Below, one piece after another: positions 8,863 to 41,346 of a DNA stretch of 64,000 bases. The stretch is from assembly GCA_947259975.1 (NCBI GenBank), contig CAMYOD010000046.1:1-64000 (forward strand), given 5' to 3'. How positions within the stretch are numbered: position 1 is the first letter of the stretch; the number at the start of each line of letters is the position of its first letter. The position numbers were made by a program, and so were the translations under genes. The notes under the pieces were generated by a model that did no database searches, was not told the DNA's origin, and was given only the letters and a program-made list of their open reading frames with translations. This stretch comes from an uncultured Gammaproteobacteria bacterium. GTDB lineage: Bacteria; Pseudomonadota; Gammaproteobacteria; HyVt-429.

Positions 8863-9297
8863 ATGCGACTGAATACATTAAGTCCGGCGGACGGCTCACA
8901 AAAGGCGCGTAAGCGCGTCGGTCGTGGCTCGGGTTCCGGTGTGGGCAAGACCTGTGGTCGCGGCCACAAAGGTCAGAAGTCCCGTTCCGGCGGTTATCAC
9001 AAGGTCGGCTTCGAAGGCGGCCAGATGCCGCTGCAGCGGCGTCTGCCCAAGCGCGGCTTTCGCTCGCACATGCGGCGCTCGCGTGCCGAGGTTCGGCTGC
9101 ATGAATTGAACGGACTGGATGTCGACGTGATCGACCTGGACGCGCTGAAGAAGGCGCGTATCGTGCCCAAGGAGACCGAACGGGCCAAGGTTATCGCCAG
9201 CGGTAAACTTGAGAAAGCGGTAACCCTGCGCGGCATCGCGGCGACCAAGGGTGCCCTGGATGCGATCAGCAAGGCTGGGGGCAAGGTAGAAGGCTGA
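8863..9297 (+). CDS. rplO: 50S ribosomal protein L15
   Basis: L15 is a late-assembly 23S rRNA-binding protein. ATG at 8863 gives the canonical N terminus [22 protein letters not shown] and 144 residues, as in E. coli; the in-frame ATG at 8854 overlaps rpmD. The Gly/Arg-rich N-terminal extension is typical. The stop overlaps secY by one base. Confidence 0.97.
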
Positions 9298-10637
9298 TGG
9301 CCAAGGCGAGCGCGCCGGGAGTCGGCAGTCTCGGGCAGTTGACCGAGCTGAAGCAACGGATCTTTTTCCTGTTGGCGGCCGTGCTGGTCTATCGGATCGG
9401 TACCTTCGTGCCGGTGCCGGGCATCGACGCGGCGGCCCTGGCGGAACTGTTCGATCAGACGCGCGGTTCCATCGTTGACGTGTTCAACATGTTCTCCGGT
9501 GGTGCGCTGGAGCGTTTGTCGGTCTTCGCGCTGGGCGTGATGCCCTATATTTCCGCCTCCATCATCATGCAGATGATGACCGCGGTGGTTCCGAGCCTGG
9601 AGCAACTGAAGAAGGAGGGCGAGGCCGGGCGTCGCAAGATCACTCAGTATACGCGCCGTGCGACGGTGGTGTTGGCGGCGTTTCAGGCACTGGGTATCTC
9701 CATCGCGCTGGAGGGTCAGCAGGTCAGCGGCGAGTTGGTGGTCCTCAACCCGGGACTGCAGTTCAAGATCACGGCGGTGGTGACCCTGGTCGCCGGCACC
9801 ATGTTTTTGATGTGGCTGGGTGAACAGGTTACGGAACGCGGCATCGGCAACGGCATCTCGATGATCATCTTTGCCGGTATCGTCGCCGGGCTGCCATCCG
9901 CAATCGGCGGTACGCTGGAGCTGGCGCGCACCGGCGCATTCAGCCCGATCGGCGTGCTGACGCTGTTTGTGGGCGCCATTGTGATCACCGGAGTGGTGGT
10001 GTTCATGGAACGCGGGCAGCGGCGGATCACGGTAAATTACGCCAAGCGTCAACAGGGCCGGCGCATGTACGCGGGGCAGAGCAGTCATTTGCCGCTGAAA
10101 TTGAACATGTCGGGGGTAATTCCGCCGATCTTTGCGTCGAGCATCATTTTGTTTCCGGCCACGCTGGGTAGCTGGTTCGGGCAGCAGGAAGGCTGGACGT
10201 GGTTGCGCGACATAGCGACGACACTGTCGCCGGGTCAGCCGGTGTATGTGTTGGTTTATGCGGCGCTGATTATATTTTTCTGCTTTTTCTATGCGGCCTT
10301 GATTTTTAATCCGCGCGAAATGGCGGATAACCTGAAGAAATCCGGCGCCTTTGTGCCGGGCATACGTCCAGGTGAGCAAACGGCCAAGTATATCGATACA
10401 GTGATGACGCGGCTGACGTTCTGGGGGGCGATCTATATCGCCGTCGTATGCCTGATCCCGGAATTCTTGATCGTGAAGTGGAATGTGCCATTTTATTTCG
10501 GCGGCACATCTTTGCTGATCATCGTGGTGGTGACCATGGACTTCATGTCCCAGGTCCAGTCACACCTGATGTCGCGGCAATATGAAAGCCTTCTGAAGAA
10601 GGCAAAACTCACAGGTGGTATGGGAGTACCGCGCTAG
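9297..10637 (+). CDS. secY: Preprotein translocase subunit SecY
   Basis: SecY is the pore subunit of the SecYEG channel in the inner membrane, used for Sec-dependent export and membrane insertion. The 446-residue protein shows about ten hydrophobic segments and the SecY signatures [29 protein letters not shown] near TM2 and the cytoplasmic loop [19 protein letters not shown]. It is translationally coupled to rplO (TGATG), the usual position at the end of the spc operon. Confidence 0.98.
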
Positions 10638-10692
10638 GTTTCGTGTCGGCGCCGTAATGGGGCGGGCGCGATAGAGTCTGGAGTTACAGGAA

Positions 10693-10806
10693 ATGAAAGT
10701 CAGAGCATCAGTGAAGAAGATCTGCCGGAACTGCAAGATTATCCGGCGTCACGGCGTGGTCCGGGTGATCTGCACGGATCCGCGGCACAAGCAGCGGCAG
10801 GGGTAA
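10693..10806 (+). CDS. rpmJ: 50S ribosomal protein L36 (zinc-ribbon form)
   Basis: This is a 37-codon gene between secY and rpsM. The product starts [19 protein letters not shown] and has the zinc ribbon Cys11, Cys14, Cys27 and His33, so it is the zinc-binding form. AGG precedes the ATG. It is the last gene of the spc operon, as in E. coli. Confidence 0.96.
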
Positions 10807-10823
10807 GCATGTTCGGCAAGCTA

Positions 10824-10852
10824 TTGATTAATCCGGCTTATCCCAGTATCCT
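10824..10852 (+). promoter_or_regulatory. Candidate sigma-70 promoter of the alpha operon
   Basis: TTGATT (10824-10829) and TATCCT (10847-10852) are separated by 17 bp, in the 91-bp gap between rpmJ and rpsM. In E. coli the alpha operon also has its own promoter at this point. The hexamers are imperfect, so this is a prediction. Confidence 0.5.
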
Positions 10853-10897
10853 TGCGCGTTTTTCGCCGCTCGCGCACTCGCTAGGAGAGAACTAGGC

Positions 10898-11254
10898 ATG
10901 GCCCGTATCGCCGGCATAAATCTGCCCAATGCCAAGCATCTGGATGTCGCGCTGACCTCCATTTATGGGGTCGGGCGCTCGCGCGCACGTAATATCTGCC
11001 AGTCCGTCGGCCTCGAGCCGACCGTGAAGGTCAAGGATCTGACCGAGGCCGACGCCGAAAAACTGCGTAAAGAGGTCAGCAAGCTCACTATTGAGGGTGA
11101 CCTGCGGCGTGAGATCACCAGCAACATCAAGCGCCTGATGGATCTCGGCGCCTATCGTGGCTTGCGCCATCGGCGCGGGTTGCCGGTACGCGGGCAGCGC
11201 ACCAAGACCAACGCGCGCGGTCGTAAGGGCCCGCGTAAGCCAATCAAGAAGTAA
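10898..11254 (+). CDS. rpsM: 30S ribosomal protein S13
   Basis: S13 contacts P-site tRNA and the 50S subunit. The 118-residue protein starts [19 protein letters not shown], has the helix-two-turn-helix region ([12 protein letters not shown]) and ends with the basic tail [18 protein letters not shown]. It is the first gene of the alpha operon and has a GGAGAG ribosome-binding site. Confidence 0.98.
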
Positions 11255-11263
11255 GGTCCAGTC

Positions 11264-11653
11264 ATGGCAAAGACACCGACGAAGACGAAAAAGCGCGTCA
11301 AGCGTAATGTCACCGAAGGCATTGCGCACATTCACGCTTCGTTCAATAACACGATCATCACCATCACCGATCGACATGGGAATACCCTGTGCTGGTCGAC
11401 GGCGGGAATGGCCGGATTCAAAGGTTCGCGCAAGAGCACCCCGTTTGCCGCCCAGGTCGCGGCGGAGCGTGCCGGACGCGCGGCCCAGGAATTCGGCCTC
11501 AAGCATCTGGATGTTCGGGTGAAGGGTCCGGGGCCTGGTCGTGATTCGGCGGTGCGCGCACTCAACGCGGTTGGGTTTGAAATCAGTAATATCGATGATG
11601 TTACGCCCATTCCGCATAACGGCTGTCGCCCGGCAAAACGGCGTCGCGTCTAG
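11264..11653 (+). CDS. rpsK: 30S ribosomal protein S11
   Basis: S11 lines the platform and interacts with mRNA in the E site. The 129-residue protein has the blocks [17 protein letters not shown] and [14 protein letters not shown] and the invariant [12 protein letters not shown] terminus. Confidence 0.98.
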
Positions 11654-11669
11654 CTGCGGAGAAGATTAA

Positions 11670-12296
11670 GTGGCACGTTATATTGGTCCAGTTTGTCGCT
11701 TGTGTCGTCGTGAGGGCGGCAAGCTTTATTTGAAAGGCGAAAAGTGCTTCACGGACAAATGTCCGGTCGAGAAGCGCAATTATCCGCCCGGGCAACACGG
11801 TCAGCGCCGTACCCGTGTATCGGATTACGGTCTGCAGTTACGCGAGAAGCAGAAGCTGCGTCGTATTTATGGCCTGCTCGAGAATCAGTTCCGCTCGTAT
11901 TACGAAGAGGCGGATCGCCGCAAAGGTGCGACGGGCGAAAATCTGTTGCAGATTCTGGAGGGTCGACTCGATAACGTCGTTTATCGAATGGGCTTTGGCA
12001 TCTCCCGCACCGAGGCGCGTCAGCTGGTGCGCCATGGCGGGGTCCTGGTCAACGGCCGACGGGTAACCATTCCGTCCTACCAGGTGCAAGCGAACGACGT
12101 CCTGGAAGTGTCGACCCGTGCCAGCCAACAGCTTCGGGTCAAGGCCTCGATCGAGGCTGCCGAGCAGCGTGGTGTCCCTGAGTGGCTCGACGTTGACTTC
12201 CAGCACTTAAAAGGCACCTACAAGGCGCCGCCCGGACGTGAGGACCTCCCGTCCGAGATTGATGAGTCGCTCGTTGTAGCGCTCTATTCGAAATAG
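11670..12296 (+). CDS. rpsD: 30S ribosomal protein S4, four-cysteine form
   Basis: S4 is a primary 16S rRNA-binding protein and, in E. coli, represses the alpha operon. The 208-residue product starts with GTG at 11670 and contains the S4 RNA-binding domain (residues about 97-160). Unlike E. coli S4, its N terminus has Cys9, Cys12, Cys26 and Cys31, spaced as in zinc-binding S4 proteins. The rest of the protein, including [11 protein letters not shown], is ordinary. Confidence 0.97.
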
Positions 12297-12323
12297 TCGT
12301 CGGTATTCTAACGAGGAACTACC

Positions 12324-13358
12324 ATGTCGGAATCAGTTGCCGAGTTTCTTAAGCCCCGCCTGGTGGACGTTCAGCAAGTGGATGCCACCCATGCGCGCGT
12401 GACGCTCGAACCCCTGGAGCGGGGATTCGGGTATACGCTCGGGAATGCCCTGCGTCGCATCCTGTTGTCGTCGATGCCGGGTTGCGCCGTCACCGAGGCC
12501 AAGATCGCCGGAGTGCAGCACGAGTATTCGTCCATCGAGGGTGTACAAGAGGACGTGATCGAGATTCTTTTGAATCTCAAGACCCTGGCCCTGCGCATGC
12601 ACGGTAGTCGTGGCGAAGCGGTATTGTCCCTCAAGAAAAAGGGCCCGGGCGCGGTCACCGCCGGTGATATCCAGGAAGAGCATGACGTCGAGGTTGTGGA
12701 TCCGGGCTACGTGATCTGCAACCTGACCAAGGACGGCAATATCGAAATGGAGCTGACCGTCACCAGCGGACGCGGTTACCAGCCGGTCGAGGCGCGCATC
12801 AGCAAGGATGAAGAGAGCAAGGAGATCGGGGTTGCCCGACTTGATGCCTCGTTCAGTCCGATTCGTCGCGTCTCCTACAGCGTGGAGAACGCGCGCGTCG
12901 AGCAGCGCACCGATCTGGACAAGCTGATCATCGATATTGAAACCAACGGTGCGATTGATCCCGAAGAGGCGATTCGCCGGGCGGCGACGATCCTGCATGA
13001 CCAGGTCTCGGTATTCGTGAACCTGGAAGAAACCGCCGCCGAGGCTCCGACCAAGGAAGAGCCCGAGGTTGATCCGCTGTTGTTGCGGCCGGTCGACGAT
13101 CTGGAGCTGACGGTGCGTTCCGCCAACTGCCTCAAGGCGGAGAATATTTATTACATCGGTGACCTCATTCAACGCTCCGAGGTGGAATTGTTGAAAACGC
13201 CTAACCTCGGCAAGAAGTCGCTTACGGAAATCAAAGACGTGTTGGCAACACGCGGTTTGTCCCTGGGGATGAAACTCGAGAATTGGCCGCCGGCCTCGCT
13301 CAAGGTTCCGCCCGAGGAATCGACACCGCCGGTGCCGACGGAGCAATTGGGGTCATAA
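12324..13358 (+). CDS. rpoA: DNA-directed RNA polymerase subunit alpha
   Basis: RpoA dimerises to nucleate RNA polymerase; its C-terminal domain binds UP elements and activators. The 344-residue protein has the N-terminal assembly domain ([19 protein letters not shown]) and a C-terminal domain with [19 protein letters not shown] and the helix-hairpin-helix [16 protein letters not shown]. It is about 15 residues longer than E. coli RpoA because of a Pro-rich tail. It has a GAGGA ribosome-binding site. Confidence 0.98.
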
Positions 13359-13361
13359 GCC

Positions 13362-13802
13362 ATGCGCCATCGTAAAAGTGGTCGCAAACTGAACCGGACC
13401 AGCGCGCACCGCAGCGCGATGTTCCGCAACATGACGGTATCCTTATTCCGTCACGAGCAGATCCGCACGACCCTGCCGAAGGCCAAGGAGCTGCGGCGCG
13501 TGGCCGAGCCCTTGATCACGCTCGGCAAGAGCCCATCGGTGTCGAATCGTCGCCTGGCGTTTGCGCGTCTGCGCGATCGTGAGATGGTCGGTAAGCTGTT
13601 TTCCGATCTGGGTGCGCACTACAAGGATCGGCCGGGCGGTTATCTGCGCATACTCAAATGCGGCTTCCGAGCCGGTGATACCGCACCCATGGCCATCGTT
13701 CAGTTGGTGGATCGACCGCTCGGCGAAAGCGCCGCGGAGGAAGCCGAGACGTCGAAGAAGGACAAGCCCAAGCGCAAATCGAAAGAGGCCGCCGCGGCCT
13801 GA
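13362..13802 (+). CDS. rplQ: 50S ribosomal protein L17
   Basis: L17 lies near the tunnel exit. The first about 120 residues match the family ([17 protein letters not shown]), followed by a Lys/Glu/Ala-rich tail that makes it 146 residues, somewhat longer than E. coli L17. It is the last gene of the alpha operon, three bases after rpoA. Confidence 0.98.
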
Positions 13803-35030: not shown

Positions 35031-36074
35031 CTACTCGAATTCCATGACCTGAAACACCCGCCCGGCATTGCGTTTGGCGAGATACTCGAACGTGGGTAAA
35101 TGGGCATACTCCGACTGATCGACCTCATAGGCCTCCTGTAGCGAGCCGCCGCTTTCGATGACCGCGGCGACCTTGGCGCGCAGGTCCACCAGGTAATCCC
35201 GGGTATAACGCGTCACCTCCGCCATATTGGTCGGCCCGCCGTGACCGGGAATGACGATTTCCGCATCGAGGGCGGCAAACTTATCCCAGGTCTCTACCCA
35301 GGCCGCGGTATCGGTGTGCTCGAAAATCGGCAACAGGCGCTGATGAAAGGCCATATCACCGGAGATCACCAGCCGCTTTGCGGGCAGCCAGACAATGATA
35401 TCGCCCGGGCTGTGGGCCGGACCCAGATTGAGCAGCTCGATCCGTTCGCCGCCCAGCTCGATCACGCGCCGGTCACCGAAGGTTTCGTCGGGTAGCACCA
35501 CGCGGGTGCCCTCGGCCTGCTCCTTGATACGTTCCCGGCTGCTGTCCAGCAGCGCGGCCTGGTTTTCGTCGATTTCGTGGGCCGCGTCTTCGTGGGCGAT
35601 CACGATGGCACCCTGTTCCTGCCAGTAGTTGGACCCCAGCGCGGCGTGCGCCTGGCCGTTTTCCAGCACCACGTACTTGACCGGTTGTTCCGTGACCTTC
35701 TTGATCTCCTCGTGCAAGGCCTTGGCCAGCAGATAACTGCCGCCGGCATTGACGACCAGCACGCCCTCGGAAGTGATGACAAACGACAGATTGTTATTGT
35801 GGCCCGCGTTTTCATAGGTCGGCGGCGCCGTGGCGCCGATGGCCGACCAGACGCCATCGATGACCTTTTGTGGTTTGTCGTAGAGCATCGAATCCGGCGC
35901 CTTGTCGCTGGTATACAAGGCTTCACCGGTGAGCTCCGGCGTCGTCTCTGCGGCAACCGGTGCCGCAACCGCCTGTGGCTGCACTTTCGGCTTCGGCGGT
36001 GATTGACCTGATTCACAGGCCGACAGCAATGCGACCGACAAAAGCAGCGGCAGAATCAGTGGCTGTTTATTCAT
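35031..36074 (-). CDS. Metallo-beta-lactamase-fold lipoprotein with altered metal motif
   Basis: The 347-residue protein has a lipoprotein signal peptide with lipobox LLSAC (Cys about 20). The MBL fold follows with VITSEGVLVVNAGGSYLLA, GPAHSPGDIIVWLP, LVISGDMAFHQRLLP and the C-terminal VIPGHGG. The HXHXDH metal motif expected after the second strand is replaced by NGQAHA (in VVLENGQAHAALGSNYW), so the usual site-1 ligands are missing, although the later His and Asp positions are kept. SoxH-like MBL proteins are the nearest type recognised. It may bind one metal or be non-catalytic. Confidence 0.82.
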   Translation of the reverse strand: MNKQPLILPLLLSVALLSACESGQSPPKPKVQPQAVAAPVAAETTPELTGEALYTSDKAPDSMLYDKPQKVIDGVWSAIGATAPPTYENAGHNNNLSFVITSEGVLVVNAGGSYLLAKALHEEIKKVTEQPVKYVVLENGQAHAALGSNYWQEQGAIVIAHEDAAHEIDENQAALLDSSRERIKEQAEGTRVVLPDETFGDRRVIELGGERIELLNLGPAHSPGDIIVWLPAKRLVISGDMAFHQRLLPIFEHTDTAAWVETWDKFAALDAEIVIPGHGGPTNMAEVTRYTRDYLVDLRAKVAAVIESGGSLQEAYEVDQSEYAHLPTFEYLAKRNAGRVFQVMEFE

Positions 36075-36238: not shown

Positions 36239-36424
36239 ATGAAAAAATCCGCGCCTGGCGTATCCAGGCCGAATAGAATCTCGGTGGAAGGCTTGCGACG
36301 GCTCGAGCAACAGCTGCAATCGGGCGCGAAGATGAGTCAGCCGGTGCTCGATCAGTGGATTGCCCGCTATGGCGAGCCGGCGCGGAATATCATCGAAAAG
36401 TATAAGATAAAGGGGTCGGAGTGA
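36239..36424 (+). CDS. Small hypothetical protein ending inside a palindrome
   Basis: This 61-residue basic protein (MKKSAPGVSRPNRISVEGLR...) has no recognised family; its central part LRRLEQQLQSGAKMSQPVLDQW is predicted helical. The last six codons (KIKGSE) and the stop lie within the left arm of the 34-bp palindrome, so the native C terminus has probably been replaced by the inserted element. The ATG is preferred over the upstream start at 36203, which has no ribosome-binding site. Confidence 0.55.
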   Translation: MKKSAPGVSRPNRISVEGLRRLEQQLQSGAKMSQPVLDQWIARYGEPARNIIEKYKIKGSE

Positions 36425-36485
36425 TTTATTTTTGAGCAGCGAGTAAATAATTGCTCAAAAATAAATCACTCCGACCCCTTTATCT
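36405..36485. repeat. 34-bp perfect inverted repeat (palindromic element)
   Basis: The left arm 36405-36438 and right arm 36452-36485 are exact reverse complements over 34 bp, with a 13-base loop. Each arm contains GGGGTCGGAGTGATTTATTT. It is a compact mobile-like palindrome sitting at the convergence of a small plus-strand gene and the minus-strand peroxidase gene. It could also end transcription in both directions. No transposase is encoded here. Confidence 0.93.
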
Positions 36486-36491
36486 CTTTAT

Positions 36492-38066
36492 CTACTCATA
36501 ATCCTCGTTCAAGGCCTTGAGAAAGGCGGTCAATGCGTCGATGTCGGCGGCATTAATGTGCATGCGATTCAGTTGTGGGCCGGCATTGCGAAGTTTGTTT
36601 GCGCGCGCCAGCTCTGACACCTGCAGATAGTGATTCACCACGTCCGCCAGGCGATCCAGGCCCCCGTCGTGCATGTAGGGGGCGGAGTGTCCCAGATCAC
36701 GCAGGGTCGGGGTGCGGAAACGGGCCACCGATGTGTTCAGTAGCTTGGCATCAGCGCAGTCCTTCTGCGCTGCGCCATCACAGAGTAAGCGACGCAGTTT
36801 AGCCTGCGGTCCCGGCATGTCCGCGTTGGCAAATACGTTCCATAACCCGAGGTCGGCGTAGCCGGGTTTGTCCTGCTGCACGTGACCGCGAAAACGACCG
36901 CTGGCCGCCGGATGCCGTGCGCTGGCGGGCAGAAAATCGTCGTGTTTTGCGGTACGTGTTGGCAGATCCGGAATAGCGAGTTTGGCGAAGGCGCCGGCGC
37001 CGTGTACGGCATCGTAGCTTAGCTGGCTACGGCCCGTGTTGTGGAACTTGCCGTCGCTAAATTCGGGCGCCTGGTGACAGGTCACGCAATTGCCCGCCTT
37101 GTTGTCGAAGAAGACCTTCATGCCCGCCAGTTCTTTGGCACCGAAAACAAAAGCCTGGGAATGGGTTTCGAATTCCCCGTCTTCACTGGTGACAAACTTG
37201 GGCGCCGCGAGGTCTGCCAGTAACTGCCGCAGGCGGGCACTGTAGTCGGCGGCGTTCTCACCGGTGTCCGGCTCTGCCGGCAGGTGGTTCTTTTTCAGGA
37301 AGGCATCGTAGGGTGATGCCTTTTCGAAGGTGAGGTCATCCACGTACACGGCGATCAGACGCGTCACCGCAGCGAAAATTTCCTCATCACTGGCGGCGGC
37401 GACATCGAGCCGGTACTCGGCAGGCAATATCAGTGTTTCGGGCAGCGCTTTATCGGTCGCTTTCAACACCCGGGCATAGGCACCACCAAATTCCACACCG
37501 AGCGCATCGTCGCCCGTATCCTGGCGAATGATGTTGGCCACATGCCGGATCGCCTGCTGTCGTTCGCCCGGCAGCCAGCCGTAGTTGCGGCCGGTTAGCG
37601 TAGCCTTGACCAGGTCGGCCATGGTGGCGAATTCACCGTCGGTGTGCAGTACGGCGCTGTTGCCGCTACCCAACAGGCTCTGGGAATTGCGTGGCGTTAA
37701 CGTGGCGCCGTCGGCGCGCTGCGGGATGGGGCTGTGGCGCGCATAGTCACTGTAACTGCGCATGCCGGCCCGTTCGTTATCGGCGTGCTCATCCACCATG
37801 TGACAGGCGCGGCAGTTCATGGTTTGGCCCTTGAAGGGACCGGGCAGCGTGCCGGCAACTGTAACCGTCGCGTCCATCACGGGATCCGCCTTGTCCGGTG
37901 ATGCCACATGGTGCTGGGCGAAACGGGTTTCCAGAAACAGGCGCTCGCCGATCTGAATTTCTGCCGGGTCTTCTTCTTCATGCGCATAGCCAGAAAGCGT
38001 CAACAGCAAGCCGCACAGGAACAGGGAGACATTGCTGAATATTCGCTTGTGGCTAAAAAATTTCAT
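36492..38066 (-). CDS. Di-heme cytochrome c peroxidase / MauG family protein
   Basis: The 524-residue exported protein has a signal peptide (residues 1 to about 28, ending SGYAHE). Heme sites are CRACH near residues 84-88 and CVTCH near 327-331, and the family C-terminal block RFRTPTLRDLGHSAPYMHDG is present. Family members reduce H2O2 or carry out long-range oxidations in the periplasm. The protein is longer than classical CcpA (about 340), with an enlarged N-terminal half. It is the last gene of the Fur-controlled operon, 67 bp after the cytochrome gene. The substrate is unknown. Confidence 0.87.
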   Translation of the reverse strand: MKFFSHKRIFSNVSLFLCGLLLTLSGYAHEEEDPAEIQIGERLFLETRFAQHHVASPDKADPVMDATVTVAGTLPGPFKGQTMNCRACHMVDEHADNERAGMRSYSDYARHSPIPQRADGATLTPRNSQSLLGSGNSAVLHTDGEFATMADLVKATLTGRNYGWLPGERQQAIRHVANIIRQDTGDDALGVEFGGAYARVLKATDKALPETLILPAEYRLDVAAASDEEIFAAVTRLIAVYVDDLTFEKASPYDAFLKKNHLPAEPDTGENAADYSARLRQLLADLAAPKFVTSEDGEFETHSQAFVFGAKELAGMKVFFDNKAGNCVTCHQAPEFSDGKFHNTGRSQLSYDAVHGAGAFAKLAIPDLPTRTAKHDDFLPASARHPAASGRFRGHVQQDKPGYADLGLWNVFANADMPGPQAKLRRLLCDGAAQKDCADAKLLNTSVARFRTPTLRDLGHSAPYMHDGGLDRLADVVNHYLQVSELARANKLRNAGPQLNRMHINAADIDALTAFLKALNEDYE

Positions 38067-38133
38067 GGCAATTTTCTTATTTGGAAACCGATGTTGGCAC
38101 GCATACCGTAGGCTAGTATGCCATCGTTAACCG

Positions 38134-38625
38134 CTATTCAAGATCAAATACCGGCGAGGGCGCGGACCTGGGTGCCTTGGGCAGCACGATAAAGGCATGA
38201 TCGTTTTTCACATGGCAGTCCATACAGGCGGCGCGCAAATCCGCGAACGCTTTACCGAACCGTGACCTATCCCCGGAGCCCGCGGCCTCGATAATGGCCG
38301 GGTAGCTGGCATCGAGAAATTCCTGTGCGGTAGCAGCCCGTTTCGGTCGGGTGATCTGGAGGGTCTCCACCAGGTCTTTCATCTCCTCGGCCTGATATTC
38401 CGCGAATTCCCATTGATCTTGCTTGGCGGCCCAGTACAGGTTGCGGTAACGATCGCCCAACTGCAGCATCAGGTTGGAGGCCCCGGGCATCACCTTGACC
38501 AGGCGTTCGACCTTGTCTTCAGTATTTGCGGTCTTGCGCCAGTCGTTCGCCCCCTTCGAGTCCGCTTGCGCACCAATCCACACAGAAAGACTTATTAACG
38601 CCGCAAGTAAAACTGCTCGCTTCAT
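38134..38625 (-). CDS. Exported mono-heme c-type cytochrome (cytochrome c'-like layout)
   Basis: The 163-residue protein has a signal peptide (MKRAVLLAALISLSVWIGAQA) and one CMDCH heme site near residues 134-138, after a long helical region. A C-terminal CXXCH after helices is the layout of class II cytochromes (c', c556). It likely shuttles electrons in the periplasm. The start overlaps the PepSY gene stop by 4 bp, so translation is coupled. Confidence 0.8.
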   Translation of the reverse strand: MKRAVLLAALISLSVWIGAQADSKGANDWRKTANTEDKVERLVKVMPGASNLMLQLGDRYRNLYWAAKQDQWEFAEYQAEEMKDLVETLQITRPKRAATAQEFLDASYPAIIEAAGSGDRSRFGKAFADLRAACMDCHVKNDHAFIVLPKAPRSAPSPVFDLE

Positions 38626-39422
38626 GCTCGTACTCCGAGTTTCAATTGATGTTTACGATGTTGGCGGCGTTTACGATTCTGCTGCCACCACAGCCACACC
38701 CCGCTTGCCGCTAATAATAAGAGAATGATTGCTGCCGCATCCATGACATAGACGCCATAGCGGCCAAAGAACCGACCGCTGTGTAGATCCAACATCACAC
38801 GTTCCAGCGGCAGTATGTTGTATCGCTGCTCGCGTTGTAATTGATCACCCAGGGCGGCAGGCAGAACCGTGGGCGTGGCCCACTTTATCGCTCGATTACC
38901 CTGCCATGATGACCATTGCAGTAAATCGGCGTCGGCCCGGTATACCGCGTCGCCCGCACGTACCAGGAGGGTGCCCCGTGCACCCAGACCCATCGCGGTC
39001 AATTCCCCCGGCATGTTCTGGCGGATCATCACGCGATCGATCACCCGACCTTTTCGGGTCAATAGCAGCACGGTATCCGGCAGCCCGATCGCGATGATGG
39101 GTCCGAGGCCAACCGCGCCGACCATAGGCATATACCCACCCGGCACCTTGTGCTGGTCCACATATAATGACTCGGCGAACTGCGAGATATAGCTTTCACC
39201 CACCTTATACGCACTCGCTCCCTGAGATGCCTCGATACCGTACCAGTCCAGCACCAGGTCGGAACGAATGTACCGGCTGTCCAGGTTTAACATTTCGGTA
39301 CGATTCAATACCAGGCCGGTGACGCTCAAAATAAACACCAGTACCGCGGCGGCGAGACCGAGATAACGGTGCCACAGATAGATCGACTTCGGCTTGAAAT
39401 GGCGGCGCTTATGGCGAGTCAT
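38622..39422 (-). CDS. PepSY-associated transmembrane protein
   Basis: The 266-residue protein has a basic N terminus, TM1 at about 17-40 (YLWHRYLGLAAAVLVFILSV, with a WHRYLG motif typical of PepSY-TM proteins whose His may bind heme), and a periplasmic domain. Near the C terminus a conserved LERVMLDLHSGRFFG block precedes TM2 (VMDAAAIILLLLAASGVWLW). PepSY-TM proteins include PiuB-type, iron-regulated and flavin-linked electron-transfer proteins. It overlaps the FMN-binding gene by 14 bp and the cytochrome gene by 4 bp. Confidence 0.82.
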   Translation of the reverse strand: MTRHKRRHFKPKSIYLWHRYLGLAAAVLVFILSVTGLVLNRTEMLNLDSRYIRSDLVLDWYGIEASQGASAYKVGESYISQFAESLYVDQHKVPGGYMPMVGAVGLGPIIAIGLPDTVLLLTRKGRVIDRVMIRQNMPGELTAMGLGARGTLLVRAGDAVYRADADLLQWSSWQGNRAIKWATPTVLPAALGDQLQREQRYNILPLERVMLDLHSGRFFGRYGVYVMDAAAIILLLLAASGVWLWWQQNRKRRQHRKHQLKLGVRA

Positions 39423-39942
39423 GCGCGCGGTTAACCTCTTGATGCAGAAACAGCGCCATGCGCGAGAGCTTTGTCAGGGCGCGCACCGAGAGTGTGGCCC
39501 CGGTGATGCCATCGATATGCCGGTCAAGCGTCAGGTCCGTACCCAGACTAGCGCCGATAAACTGTTTGGTAAAAAACGGATGGCGAACTTCCCAACCACG
39601 GCTCTCGCGAAAGATTAATACTTTGAGCAGCTCGATGCGGTCATCATCCACTACGATACCCACGGTAATCGGCTGCTCCTTGCCGATGGCCTCCAGCACC
39701 CAGGCACTACGCGCGCCTTTAAGCCAGTAGCGCACGCGCAGGCTGCCATACTCGTGGCCGAGCACACGTTTTACCCGGTCACCGACCTCACCGGTCAACC
39801 ACACCACCTGCGGCGCCGGCGGACTGCCGGCGAACACCTCGGCCAGGAAATCCTCGGGTTCCTGATAGATGCCCCTGGCCAAAGCGACCGACGACAGCCA
39901 GCACACGACAAGAAATAACACTATGCGTTGGCGCTTCATCAT
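39409..39942 (-). CDS. Exported FMN-binding domain protein (covalent flavinylation motif)
   Basis: Start 39942 or 39939 (consecutive ATGs) gives about 177 residues with a signal peptide ending ALA. The FMN-binding domain as in NqrC/RnfG is indicated by IDGITGATLSVRALTKL, the ApbE-type motif in which the Thr of TGATLS receives FMN. With no C-terminal membrane anchor, the protein is likely periplasmic. It lies between the porin and PepSY genes; the porin gap contains a hairpin. An electron-carrier role is inferred. Confidence 0.85.
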   Translation of the reverse strand: MMKRQRIVLFLVVCWLSSVALARGIYQEPEDFLAEVFAGSPPAPQVVWLTGEVGDRVKRVLGHEYGSLRVRYWLKGARSAWVLEAIGKEQPITVGIVVDDDRIELLKVLIFRESRGWEVRHPFFTKQFIGASLGTDLTLDRHIDGITGATLSVRALTKLSRMALFLHQEVNRAHDSP

Positions 39943-39967
39943 CCGGTTGTGTGCCTCAATCAATAAA

Positions 39968-39992
39968 GGCACGGCCCGAACCGGGCCGTGCC
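39968..39992 (-). terminator. Attenuator-like hairpin between porin and FMN-binding genes
   Basis: A perfect 11-bp GC-rich stem (GGCACGGCCCG and its complement) has a 3-base loop. On the minus strand it is followed by TTTATTG, a weak U-tract. Partial termination here would make porin mRNA exceed that of the downstream redox genes. Confidence 0.7.
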
Positions 39993-40019
39993 AAATTGTT
40001 TACAGATTAGGATTAAGGA

Positions 40020-41255
40020 TTAAAATTGATAACCGACACCGACATTAAAGCCATCCTGGTTCTTGCCACTGTCATGATCCTGGCTTTGATAGTCGGCTTT
40101 GATCACCACATCCGGATGCGGCCACCAGTTCATGCCGATATCCCATTGGGTCTTTTCGCTGCCGACACTATCACCGGCCTGATTGTCCCATTGGTTGTAG
40201 CGCGCGAACAGGCCCAGCTTTTCATTCACTTTGAATGACGGCTCCACATACCAGCCGGACTGTTCATCCGCCCCTACACCGGCAGGCCCGGTGCCGTCCA
40301 GATCCCAATGGGCGTATAGCGCCCGCAATCCGAATGGCCCGCGGTTGAAAATACCATGGGCCTCGAACAGGGTGGCGCTGCCGGCGGTGGGGTCCGACCC
40401 CTGGGTGATATCACCCTGGTGCTGGACGGTACCGGCGAGTTCCATGCCGGGACGCCCGGTCCACTTTACCCGTCCGGTGACGGCCAGGTCGCTGGCCTTG
40501 GCCTTGGCGGTTTTTTGGCGGCCCTTGCGTATTGCGTAGTTACTCCCGGCGGAGGTGTTCAGACCTTCGTGTACTGCAACGTCGTAACTCCAGCCCGGAG
40601 CCAGTTCGCCCTGCAGTGCCGCACCACCGGCCCACCAGGTGCTGGGGATGATGTCTTTCTCCACCGGGTTGCGCTCGACACCGTAGAAGGTATTCGGTTC
40701 GTGGGTCTCATTGAGAATGCCCGCGGGAATCAGGAATATGCCGGCCCTGGCGCGATGGGTGTCGTTCAGATCGAATTCGATGTAGGCCTGTTCCAGTTCC
40801 ACCTCGCCGGGACCGCTCCCGTCGTCGGTGTCCTCGACCAGGGCATGTTCCAGCTCCAGTTCGGAGTGAAACCGCACCTTGTCGTTAAAATCATGTCCGA
40901 AGAACAGCACGAAGCGATGGAAGTCCAGCTCATCCTTGTCCTTGGCGCCGCCTTCACCGTCCAGGTTGTTGTAGTGCAGCTCGCCGTAGCCGCCAACACG
41001 GGTGCGTTCCGCCCAGGCCGCCTTGGTGGGTTTGGTGTCCACCGCCTTTTCCGCAGTTTCCACCGCGACCTCGGCCTTCTGGTCGGTCTGCTGGAGCTGG
41101 GACTTGAGGACCTTGATCTCGCGCTGTTGTTGCTGGATCAAGCGCCACATCTCCTCGACGGATGGGGTGCCGGGAGCCCCGGCCATGGCCGGGGATATGG
41201 ATAACGAAAGGGCCCCGGCTATAGCCGGGGCCGCCAAGTACTTTAAGGATTTCAC
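40020..41255 (-). CDS. Outer-membrane porin with N-terminal coiled coil (OprP/O-like)
   Basis: The GTG at 41255 has an AGGAG ribosome-binding site and gives 411 residues; the frame to 41285 lacks one. The signal peptide ends MAGA. Residues about 30-70 are a Gln/Lys-rich coiled coil (EEMWRLIQQQQREIKVLKSQ), as in trimeric phosphate-selective-type porins. The rest is a beta barrel with alternating patterns (VGGYGELHYNN, VRFHSELELEHAL, AYIEFDLN) and a C-terminal Phe (NVGVGYQF). It is the first gene of the Fur-box operon. The solute is unknown; an iron chelate or phosphate are possibilities. Confidence 0.88.
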   Translation of the reverse strand: MKSLKYLAAPAIAGALSLSISPAMAGAPGTPSVEEMWRLIQQQQREIKVLKSQLQQTDQKAEVAVETAEKAVDTKPTKAAWAERTRVGGYGELHYNNLDGEGGAKDKDELDFHRFVLFFGHDFNDKVRFHSELELEHALVEDTDDGSGPGEVELEQAYIEFDLNDTHRARAGIFLIPAGILNETHEPNTFYGVERNPVEKDIIPSTWWAGGAALQGELAPGWSYDVAVHEGLNTSAGSNYAIRKGRQKTAKAKASDLAVTGRVKWTGRPGMELAGTVQHQGDITQGSDPTAGSATLFEAHGIFNRGPFGLRALYAHWDLDGTGPAGVGADEQSGWYVEPSFKVNEKLGLFARYNQWDNQAGDSVGSEKTQWDIGMNWWPHPDVVIKADYQSQDHDSGKNQDGFNVGVGYQF

Positions 41256-41296
41256 CGTAATCTCCTGACGACAGTCTGCGTTCAAAAAGAGCCGGG

Positions 41297-41346
41297 ATTC
41301 TATTTACATACGAATACAAATGCAAATCATTCGCATTTGTATTCGT
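41297..41346 (-). promoter_or_regulatory. Fur box overlapping a sigma-70 promoter
   Basis: The 19 bases AATGCAAATCATTCGCATT (41319-41337) match 15 of 19 positions of the Fur consensus. They sit in a 37-bp near-perfect palindrome (41310-41346, one mismatched pair). On the minus strand TTGCAT (41325-41320) and TAGAAT (41302-41297), 17 bp apart, form a promoter for the porin operon, so bound Fur would cover the -35 element and repress when iron is plentiful. Confidence 0.85.

Follow-up and report, generated by a model that had tools for sequence, protein, structure and literature searches.

A porin–FMN_bind–PepSY gene core behind a Fur-like site: a candidate reductive iron-assimilation operon in Gammaproteobacteria

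The window analysed here (a stretch of 64,000 nucleotides from the draft genome, in 78 contigs, of an uncultured gammaproteobacterium) contains a row of five genes on the minus strand, for which the ORF positions and the Pfam assignments agree: a porin of the Porin_O_P family (40020-41255), a periplasmic FMN_bind protein (39409-39939), a PepSY_TM membrane protein (38622-39422), a periplasmic mono-haem cytochrome c'-like protein (38134-38625) and a di-haem protein of the CCP/MauG superfamily (36492-38066). This same-strand row had been described in an earlier, sequence-only reading of the window, along with overlaps of 14 bp (FMN_bind/PepSY) and 4 bp (PepSY/cytochrome), both of which are correct. 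Its further claim of a near-perfect Fur palindrome over the promoter also held. A 37-bp inverted repeat (41310-41346), formed by 18-nt arms of 94% complementarity and a 1-nt spacer, contains a Fur-like 19-mer, AATGCAAATCATTCGCATT (41319-41337), which agrees with the consensus at 14 of 18 positions, is the top-scoring site of the whole window and was equalled in none of 200 resamplings of the stretch upstream of the porin. The 19-mer overlaps the -35 element of a sigma-70-like match on the minus strand (TTTGCA-18-TAGAAT, 41326-41297; 9/12 matches), which is weak by itself, such matches occurring near chance frequency.

The porin scores above the Pfam cut-off (PF07396). In the ORF list it spans 41285-40020, with an upstream TTG taken as the start; the true start is probably the GTG at 41255, which has an AGGAGA 5 nt upstream of it. 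The protein carries a Sec signal, and its predicted structure is a barrel of 16 strands with a coiled coil at the N-terminus. The fold resembles OprP and general porins (OprP, 2o4v, was the second-best fold match), a PDB sequence search with the porin gave no match, and a plasmid search found nothing beyond distant porin homologues. The Porin_O_P profile and the 16-strand barrel are common to this protein and OprP/OprO, whereas identity is low (15%) and the conserved inward residues are here mainly Glu, His and Asp. As judged by strand parity, conserved and probably inward-facing positions include Y100, E102, H104, D121, H123, E142, E144 and E146; As to the arginine ladder that makes OprP/OprO selective for phosphate, R124, R253, R256 and R362 are invariant here, with most of the conserved inward residues being acidic or His. 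A constriction motif, NETHEP..FYGVERNPVE, is strongly conserved.

Two known types of outer-membrane protein were considered and rejected for this porin. LbtU of Legionella is likewise an outer-membrane barrel with an N-terminal coiled coil, and the NCBIfam LbtU model (NF033652) had no match here, nor in one search any in the control genomes. For an outer-membrane conduit of the MtrCAB kind the 16-strand barrel is too small, and the adjoining cytochrome is mono-haem, not multi-haem.

The FMN_bind domain (PF04205) scores 29.9 bits against a cut-off of 22; the ORF list gives 39972-39409, within which the ATG at 39939 is the likely start. All 21 FMN_bind sequences compared share the ApbE flavinylation motif D..[ST]GAT.S (DGITGATLS in the window), and the source genome encodes one ApbE, at C13, as well as Fur and FeoB, the latter lying outside the operon. 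Because the motif is invariant and ApbE is present, covalent attachment of FMN to this protein appears likely. The PepSY_TM protein matches both PF03929 (54.7 bits, cut-off 28.8) and PF16357 (40.2, cut-off 27). Its structural model (pLDDT 94.7) has two long helices around a beta-rich, propeller-like periplasmic domain, for which a fold search returned weak propeller matches alone (E ~2e-3, TM ~0.33). All 64 sequences compared have H18 and H214; position 41 is His in 63 of the 64 and Arg in the window protein. This His is a likely haem ligand.

The cytochrome, with a single CxxCH, scores 19.6 bits with PF01322, below the cut-off of 26.5, and is called c'-like because of its C-terminal CMDCH and weak matches to cytochromes c' in the PDB. 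The di-haem protein has two CxxCH motifs and 35.9 bits with CCP_MauG (PF03150; cut-off 25.6).

To survey the first three genes we used FMN_bind homologues as the anchor, in 95 relatives and in 369 genomes sampled evenly across the class. Homologues were found in 22 of the 95 relatives and 77 of the 369 class genomes (63 of 272 genera), as a single copy in each of these 77, together with 80 named GTDB loci. The porin gene lies immediately upstream of FMN_bind in 80 of the 81 loci with enough sequence, and a PepSY gene immediately downstream in 92 of 96; four near-duplicate records are included in these counts. Among the four PepSY exceptions, FMN_bind and PepSY share one ORF in two (L068 and L132), a third carries an insert of ~1.2 kb (L112), and in the last (L044) no PepSY gene was found. 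The comparison thus makes porin–FMN_bind–PepSY a well-established three-gene core. L132 is from Pelagicoccus, which suggests transfer outside the Proteobacteria.

The idea of a five-gene operon, and of its gene order recurring elsewhere, stands only for this core: it is conserved and widespread, whereas the cytochrome and MauG genes are optional and separately associated with Fur-like sites, and no second instance of the exact five-gene set was present in the genomes surveyed.

A terminator-like hairpin (39968-39992, minus strand), strong and absent from the earlier reading, separates the porin from FMN_bind in the window, and 45 of 85 loci of relatives have a similar hairpin 3' of the porin, as against 2% of random stretches. 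The hairpin probably lowers expression of the genes downstream of the porin; its position after the porin gene and its retention in these loci suggest overproduction of the porin relative to the reductase.

The Fur-like sites of the relatives were scanned with a fixed consensus (no fitting) in the region around the porin start, in 80 non-duplicate loci. A site of at least 13/18 was found in 62 of the 80, compared with 4.2% of random 400-bp segments taken from these loci, and one of at least 14/18 in 48, compared with 1.7%. Fur-like sites upstream in other genomes, which the sequence-only reading had named as a check, are thus frequent, and the conservation of these predicted sites supports Fur control of the core. 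Among the remaining loci, L109 and L130 have a Fur-like site beyond the scanned stretch, and in L041, where the porin is separate, the site precedes the FMN_bind gene instead.

A gene for an Fe(III)-type ABC binding protein, FeoB, ferritin, a TonB receptor or ApbE lies within 5 kb of the core in 23 of the 96 loci; the ABC binding proteins match general SBP families in Pfam, and their Fbp-type label comes from sequence and operon layout. The clearest case is L120, in which one strand carries, in order, ApbE, a cytochrome, an FbpA-type protein, porin, FMN_bind, PepSY and an FbpB-type permease, with a Fur-like site before the cytochrome gene. The core is directly followed by FbpA-type genes in L117, L121 and L127, by ApbE in L132 and by a ferritin-like gene in L085 and L097. 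In two Shewanella a TonB-dependent receptor gene precedes it, and some genomes have a flanking gene for a TonB receptor of the ferric-citrate type. Iron genes plus A-type Fe-S genes number 10.2 per 100 kb in the 2.5 kb nearest the core and 1.6 at 5-7.5 kb, a figure that shows closeness and is not an unbiased test, the families having been picked after the neighbourhood was viewed and the loci not being phylogenetically independent. Overall, an iron-linked neighbourhood of the core is well supported. Fur control and a role in iron, as originally proposed for this locus, are likewise well supported by comparison, through the conserved upstream sites and the iron-transport and iron-storage neighbours.

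We consider the best explanation of the locus, which we judge to be moderately probable, to be a Fur-repressed reductive iron-assimilation operon with a dedicated porin. Several observations count against it: a dedicated iron gene is missing within 5 kb in 73 of the 96 loci, the module is absent from the three other genomes compared of the window's own family, the window PepSY protein has Arg in place of the His at position 41, and the source genome is a draft. Fur control would fit equally with an iron-sparing envelope redox system, in which the flavin protein would replace an iron-containing periplasmic carrier (in respiration or in thiol or peroxide reduction), the porin would provide general nutrient supply, and the module would respond to iron while not handling it. 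Recurrent redox neighbours, such as a thioredoxin-like protein in L063 and a Tpx-like gene in L100, speak in favor of such a role. We regard it as unlikely, however, given the direct linkage of the core to Fbp-type, Feo, ferritin and TonB-receptor genes; a purely internal redox function would leave the near-constant porin unexplained, and the haem proteins added in the window are the opposite of sparing iron.

For the iron-assimilation operon, reductive iron release is the best available mechanism, and from the gene content we infer the following course. Under iron shortage Fur would leave the palindrome, and the porin, with the hairpin after its gene, would be produced in excess over the rest and would let a small iron compound, probably a weak chelate of ferric iron, into the periplasm. 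The PepSY_TM protein would carry electrons out of the inner membrane to the FMN covalently bound on the FMN_bind protein, and the latter would reduce ferric iron to Fe(II) for uptake by FeoB; in relatives the iron may be handed to the neighbouring Fbp-type ABC transporter. The mono-haem cytochrome would serve as an extra electron carrier in the source genome, and the MauG-like di-haem enzyme would, probably as a peroxidase or oxidase, guard against Fenton chemistry or process the chelate. While the gene set, the conserved core and the Fur-like sites are well supported, flavinylation, the direction of electron flow, iron reduction, what the porin carries and what the cytochrome and MauG-like proteins do are presented here as conditional parts of this scheme.

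Both accessory genes are rare. Cytochrome homologues occur in 10 of the 369 class genomes and MauG orthologues in 7, mostly apart from the core, and for this reason we rejected the view that all five form a single ancient operon. The cytochrome gene adjoins the core in at least five other loci (L067, L110, L111, L120 and L167), comes after a TonB receptor in L170, L172 and L054, and in L173 stands alone behind an 18/18 Fur box; L054 also retains a broken PepSY remnant. A MauG homologue lies directly 3' of PepSY in L104. Among the six MauG genes of the class sample outside the window, five are stand-alone genes with a Fur-like site just upstream (18/18 in L162, 17 in L163 and L165, 15 in L164 and 13 in L056), each being the best or tied best in its stretch of 8-14 kb, and the sixth (L166) has none just upstream. 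The cytochrome and MauG genes are, by these predicted sites, separate Fur-regulon additions to the conserved core, and in our view three pieces of the Fur regulon have come together in the window operon. Supplying the cytochrome and MauG with their three haems is costly under iron shortage, and this too counts against iron assimilation.

The MauG-like protein opens two further explanations. The best NCBIfam model for it is the MbnH family (TIGR04039), with 63.3 bits, far under the cut-off of 362.85; copper chemistry of the MbnH/MbnP kind was rejected on this score and because the operon has no MbnP-like gene. The same top-scoring model, the strict porin linkage, the conserved, probably inward-facing Glu and His residues and the constriction motif would all agree with a porin acting as receptor or channel for one specific siderophore or ferric chelate, whose iron would be freed by the PepSY/FMN pair and whose ligand, or a periplasmic partner, would be oxidatively broken or modified by MauG, as MbnH does with MbnP. 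This seems to us quite improbable, since the MbnH score falls so far short, the operon lacks a siderophore synthesis gene as well as an MbnP-like one, the LbtU siderophore-porin model has no match, and almost all loci are without MauG. The adjacency of a two-CxxCH CCP_MauG protein and a mono-haem carrier could alternatively point to a cytochrome c peroxidase branch fed by the PepSY/FMN chain, with peroxide defence in iron shortage as its main output. We give this very little credence: nearly all genomes with the core have it without the cytochrome and MauG genes, and the sequence here does not separate a peroxidase from a MauG-like oxidase.

A broader form of the iron-assimilation reading can be put forward tentatively, as possible rather than probable. 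The core may be a distinct and widespread TonB-independent system of reductive iron uptake: a dedicated porin would supply ferric chelates to a reductase with covalently bound flavin, and attachable Fur-regulon modules (cytochrome, MauG) would handle chelate or peroxide. If this is true, a porin paired one-to-one with a flavin electron-transfer pair would constitute a second iron route besides TonB receptors, with environmental carriers such as the Thiogranum, Shewanella, Thalassotalea and Methylophaga loci.

A search of the open-access literature found no paper on the combination of an FMN-binding protein, PepSY, a porin and iron, although some such clusters may be listed in the supplementary tables of PMC8238504. 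The porin–FMN_bind–PepSY module therefore appears to be undescribed, in agreement with the sequence-only reading, which knew of no system with exactly this gene set; yet Fur-repressed PepSY-type flavinylation clusters have been known since 2021 (PMC8238504). The core occurs in about one fifth of the sampled class genomes, in single copy, with near-absolute linkage and a Fur box, with no published description found.

Among known systems, the two-haem siderophore reductase FoxB and the PepSY protein HiuB, which is required for xenosiderophore iron and is encoded in a Fur-regulated iron operon (PMC12424826), share the PepSY_TM membrane protein. Both have two His-ligated haem sites, and the partner of HiuB is a TonB-dependent receptor, whereas the window protein has two long helices, two invariant His and the propeller-like domain. 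The four conserved His of a FoxB-type reductase are not all present in the window protein: H18 and H214 are invariant and the third His (41) is Arg. The iron-starvation locus BT2473-2482 of Bacteroides thetaiotaomicron, which is iron-induced and encodes a thiol oxidoreductase as well as a porin (PMC10434189), is a loose parallel, but it has peptidase M75 and CcsA proteins, and FMN_bind and PepSY are not listed for it. SO1188-SO1189-SO1190 of Shewanella oneidensis is an operon of three genes that responds to iron, is linked to Fur and encodes a PepSY_TM protein of the inner membrane; the accounts consulted describe no porin there, and the likeness rests on the PepSY_TM gene and the regulation. 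Meheust et al. 2021 (PMC8238504) described PepSY-like flavinylation clusters with a PepSY_TM gene beside a flavinylation substrate, a linkage to iron transporters and Fur repression in Shewanella and Caulobacter. The window has the features of such a cluster (a PF03929/PF16357 protein, a partner with the flavinylation motif and a genomic ApbE). In contrast to those clusters, the substrate is here FMN_bind instead of the usual DUF2271 or DUF4198, ApbE is mostly encoded elsewhere, and a Porin_O_P gene nearly always comes first, while porins go unmentioned in the text of PMC8238504. Because these defining features are shared, we place the module among the PepSY/flavinylation iron systems, from which it is set apart by its fixed porin partner and its FMN_bind substrate.

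Fur boxes, the best of them a perfect site (18 of 18 consensus positions), were found immediately 5' of stand-alone MauG-like genes in five loci from other genomes compared with the window (L162 at 6037, L163 at 6478, L164 at 7756, L165 at 6256 and L056 at 7055). Judged from sequence, the stand-alone MauG-like protein would be a di-haem enzyme putatively under Fur control in its own right. A cytochrome c'-like gene likewise stands alone in the compared locus L173 (6288-6870), where it is preceded by a perfect Fur box and lies divergent from an A-type Fe-S gene. Near the cytochrome gene of another such locus, L170, short repeated ORF fragments (FNPHPARRPGAV / SILTRREGRVL; 10348-13717) look like a CRISPR array. 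The module itself appears to be decaying in L054, where the PepSY gene behind a TonB receptor is reduced to a broken remnant and the cytochrome gene that follows is intact (8988-12300).

In the window, residue 41 of the PepSY protein (38622-39422) is Arg, the position being occupied in 63 of 64 sequences by His, a probable haem ligand; since a single base change suffices for the His to Arg replacement, an assembly error at this codon is possible. Directly past the MauG stop codon sits a perfect 34-nt inverted repeat with a 13-nt loop (36405-36485; motif AAAGGGGTCGGAGTGA), abutted by a short ORF (36240-36425) ending in the same motif. The repeat resembles mobile elements of the REP/MITE type, and transcription of the five-gene operon may end there as well.

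The metallo-beta-lactamase-fold protein encoded at 35031-36074 of the window has 'quinoprotein relay system' hydrolases as its nearest models, scoring under their cut-offs. Homologues of the porin (33-38% identity), annotated as hypothetical proteins, are carried by plasmid records of Candidatus Manganitrophus (CP114554, CP114559) and Ideonella dechloratans (NZ_CP088082).
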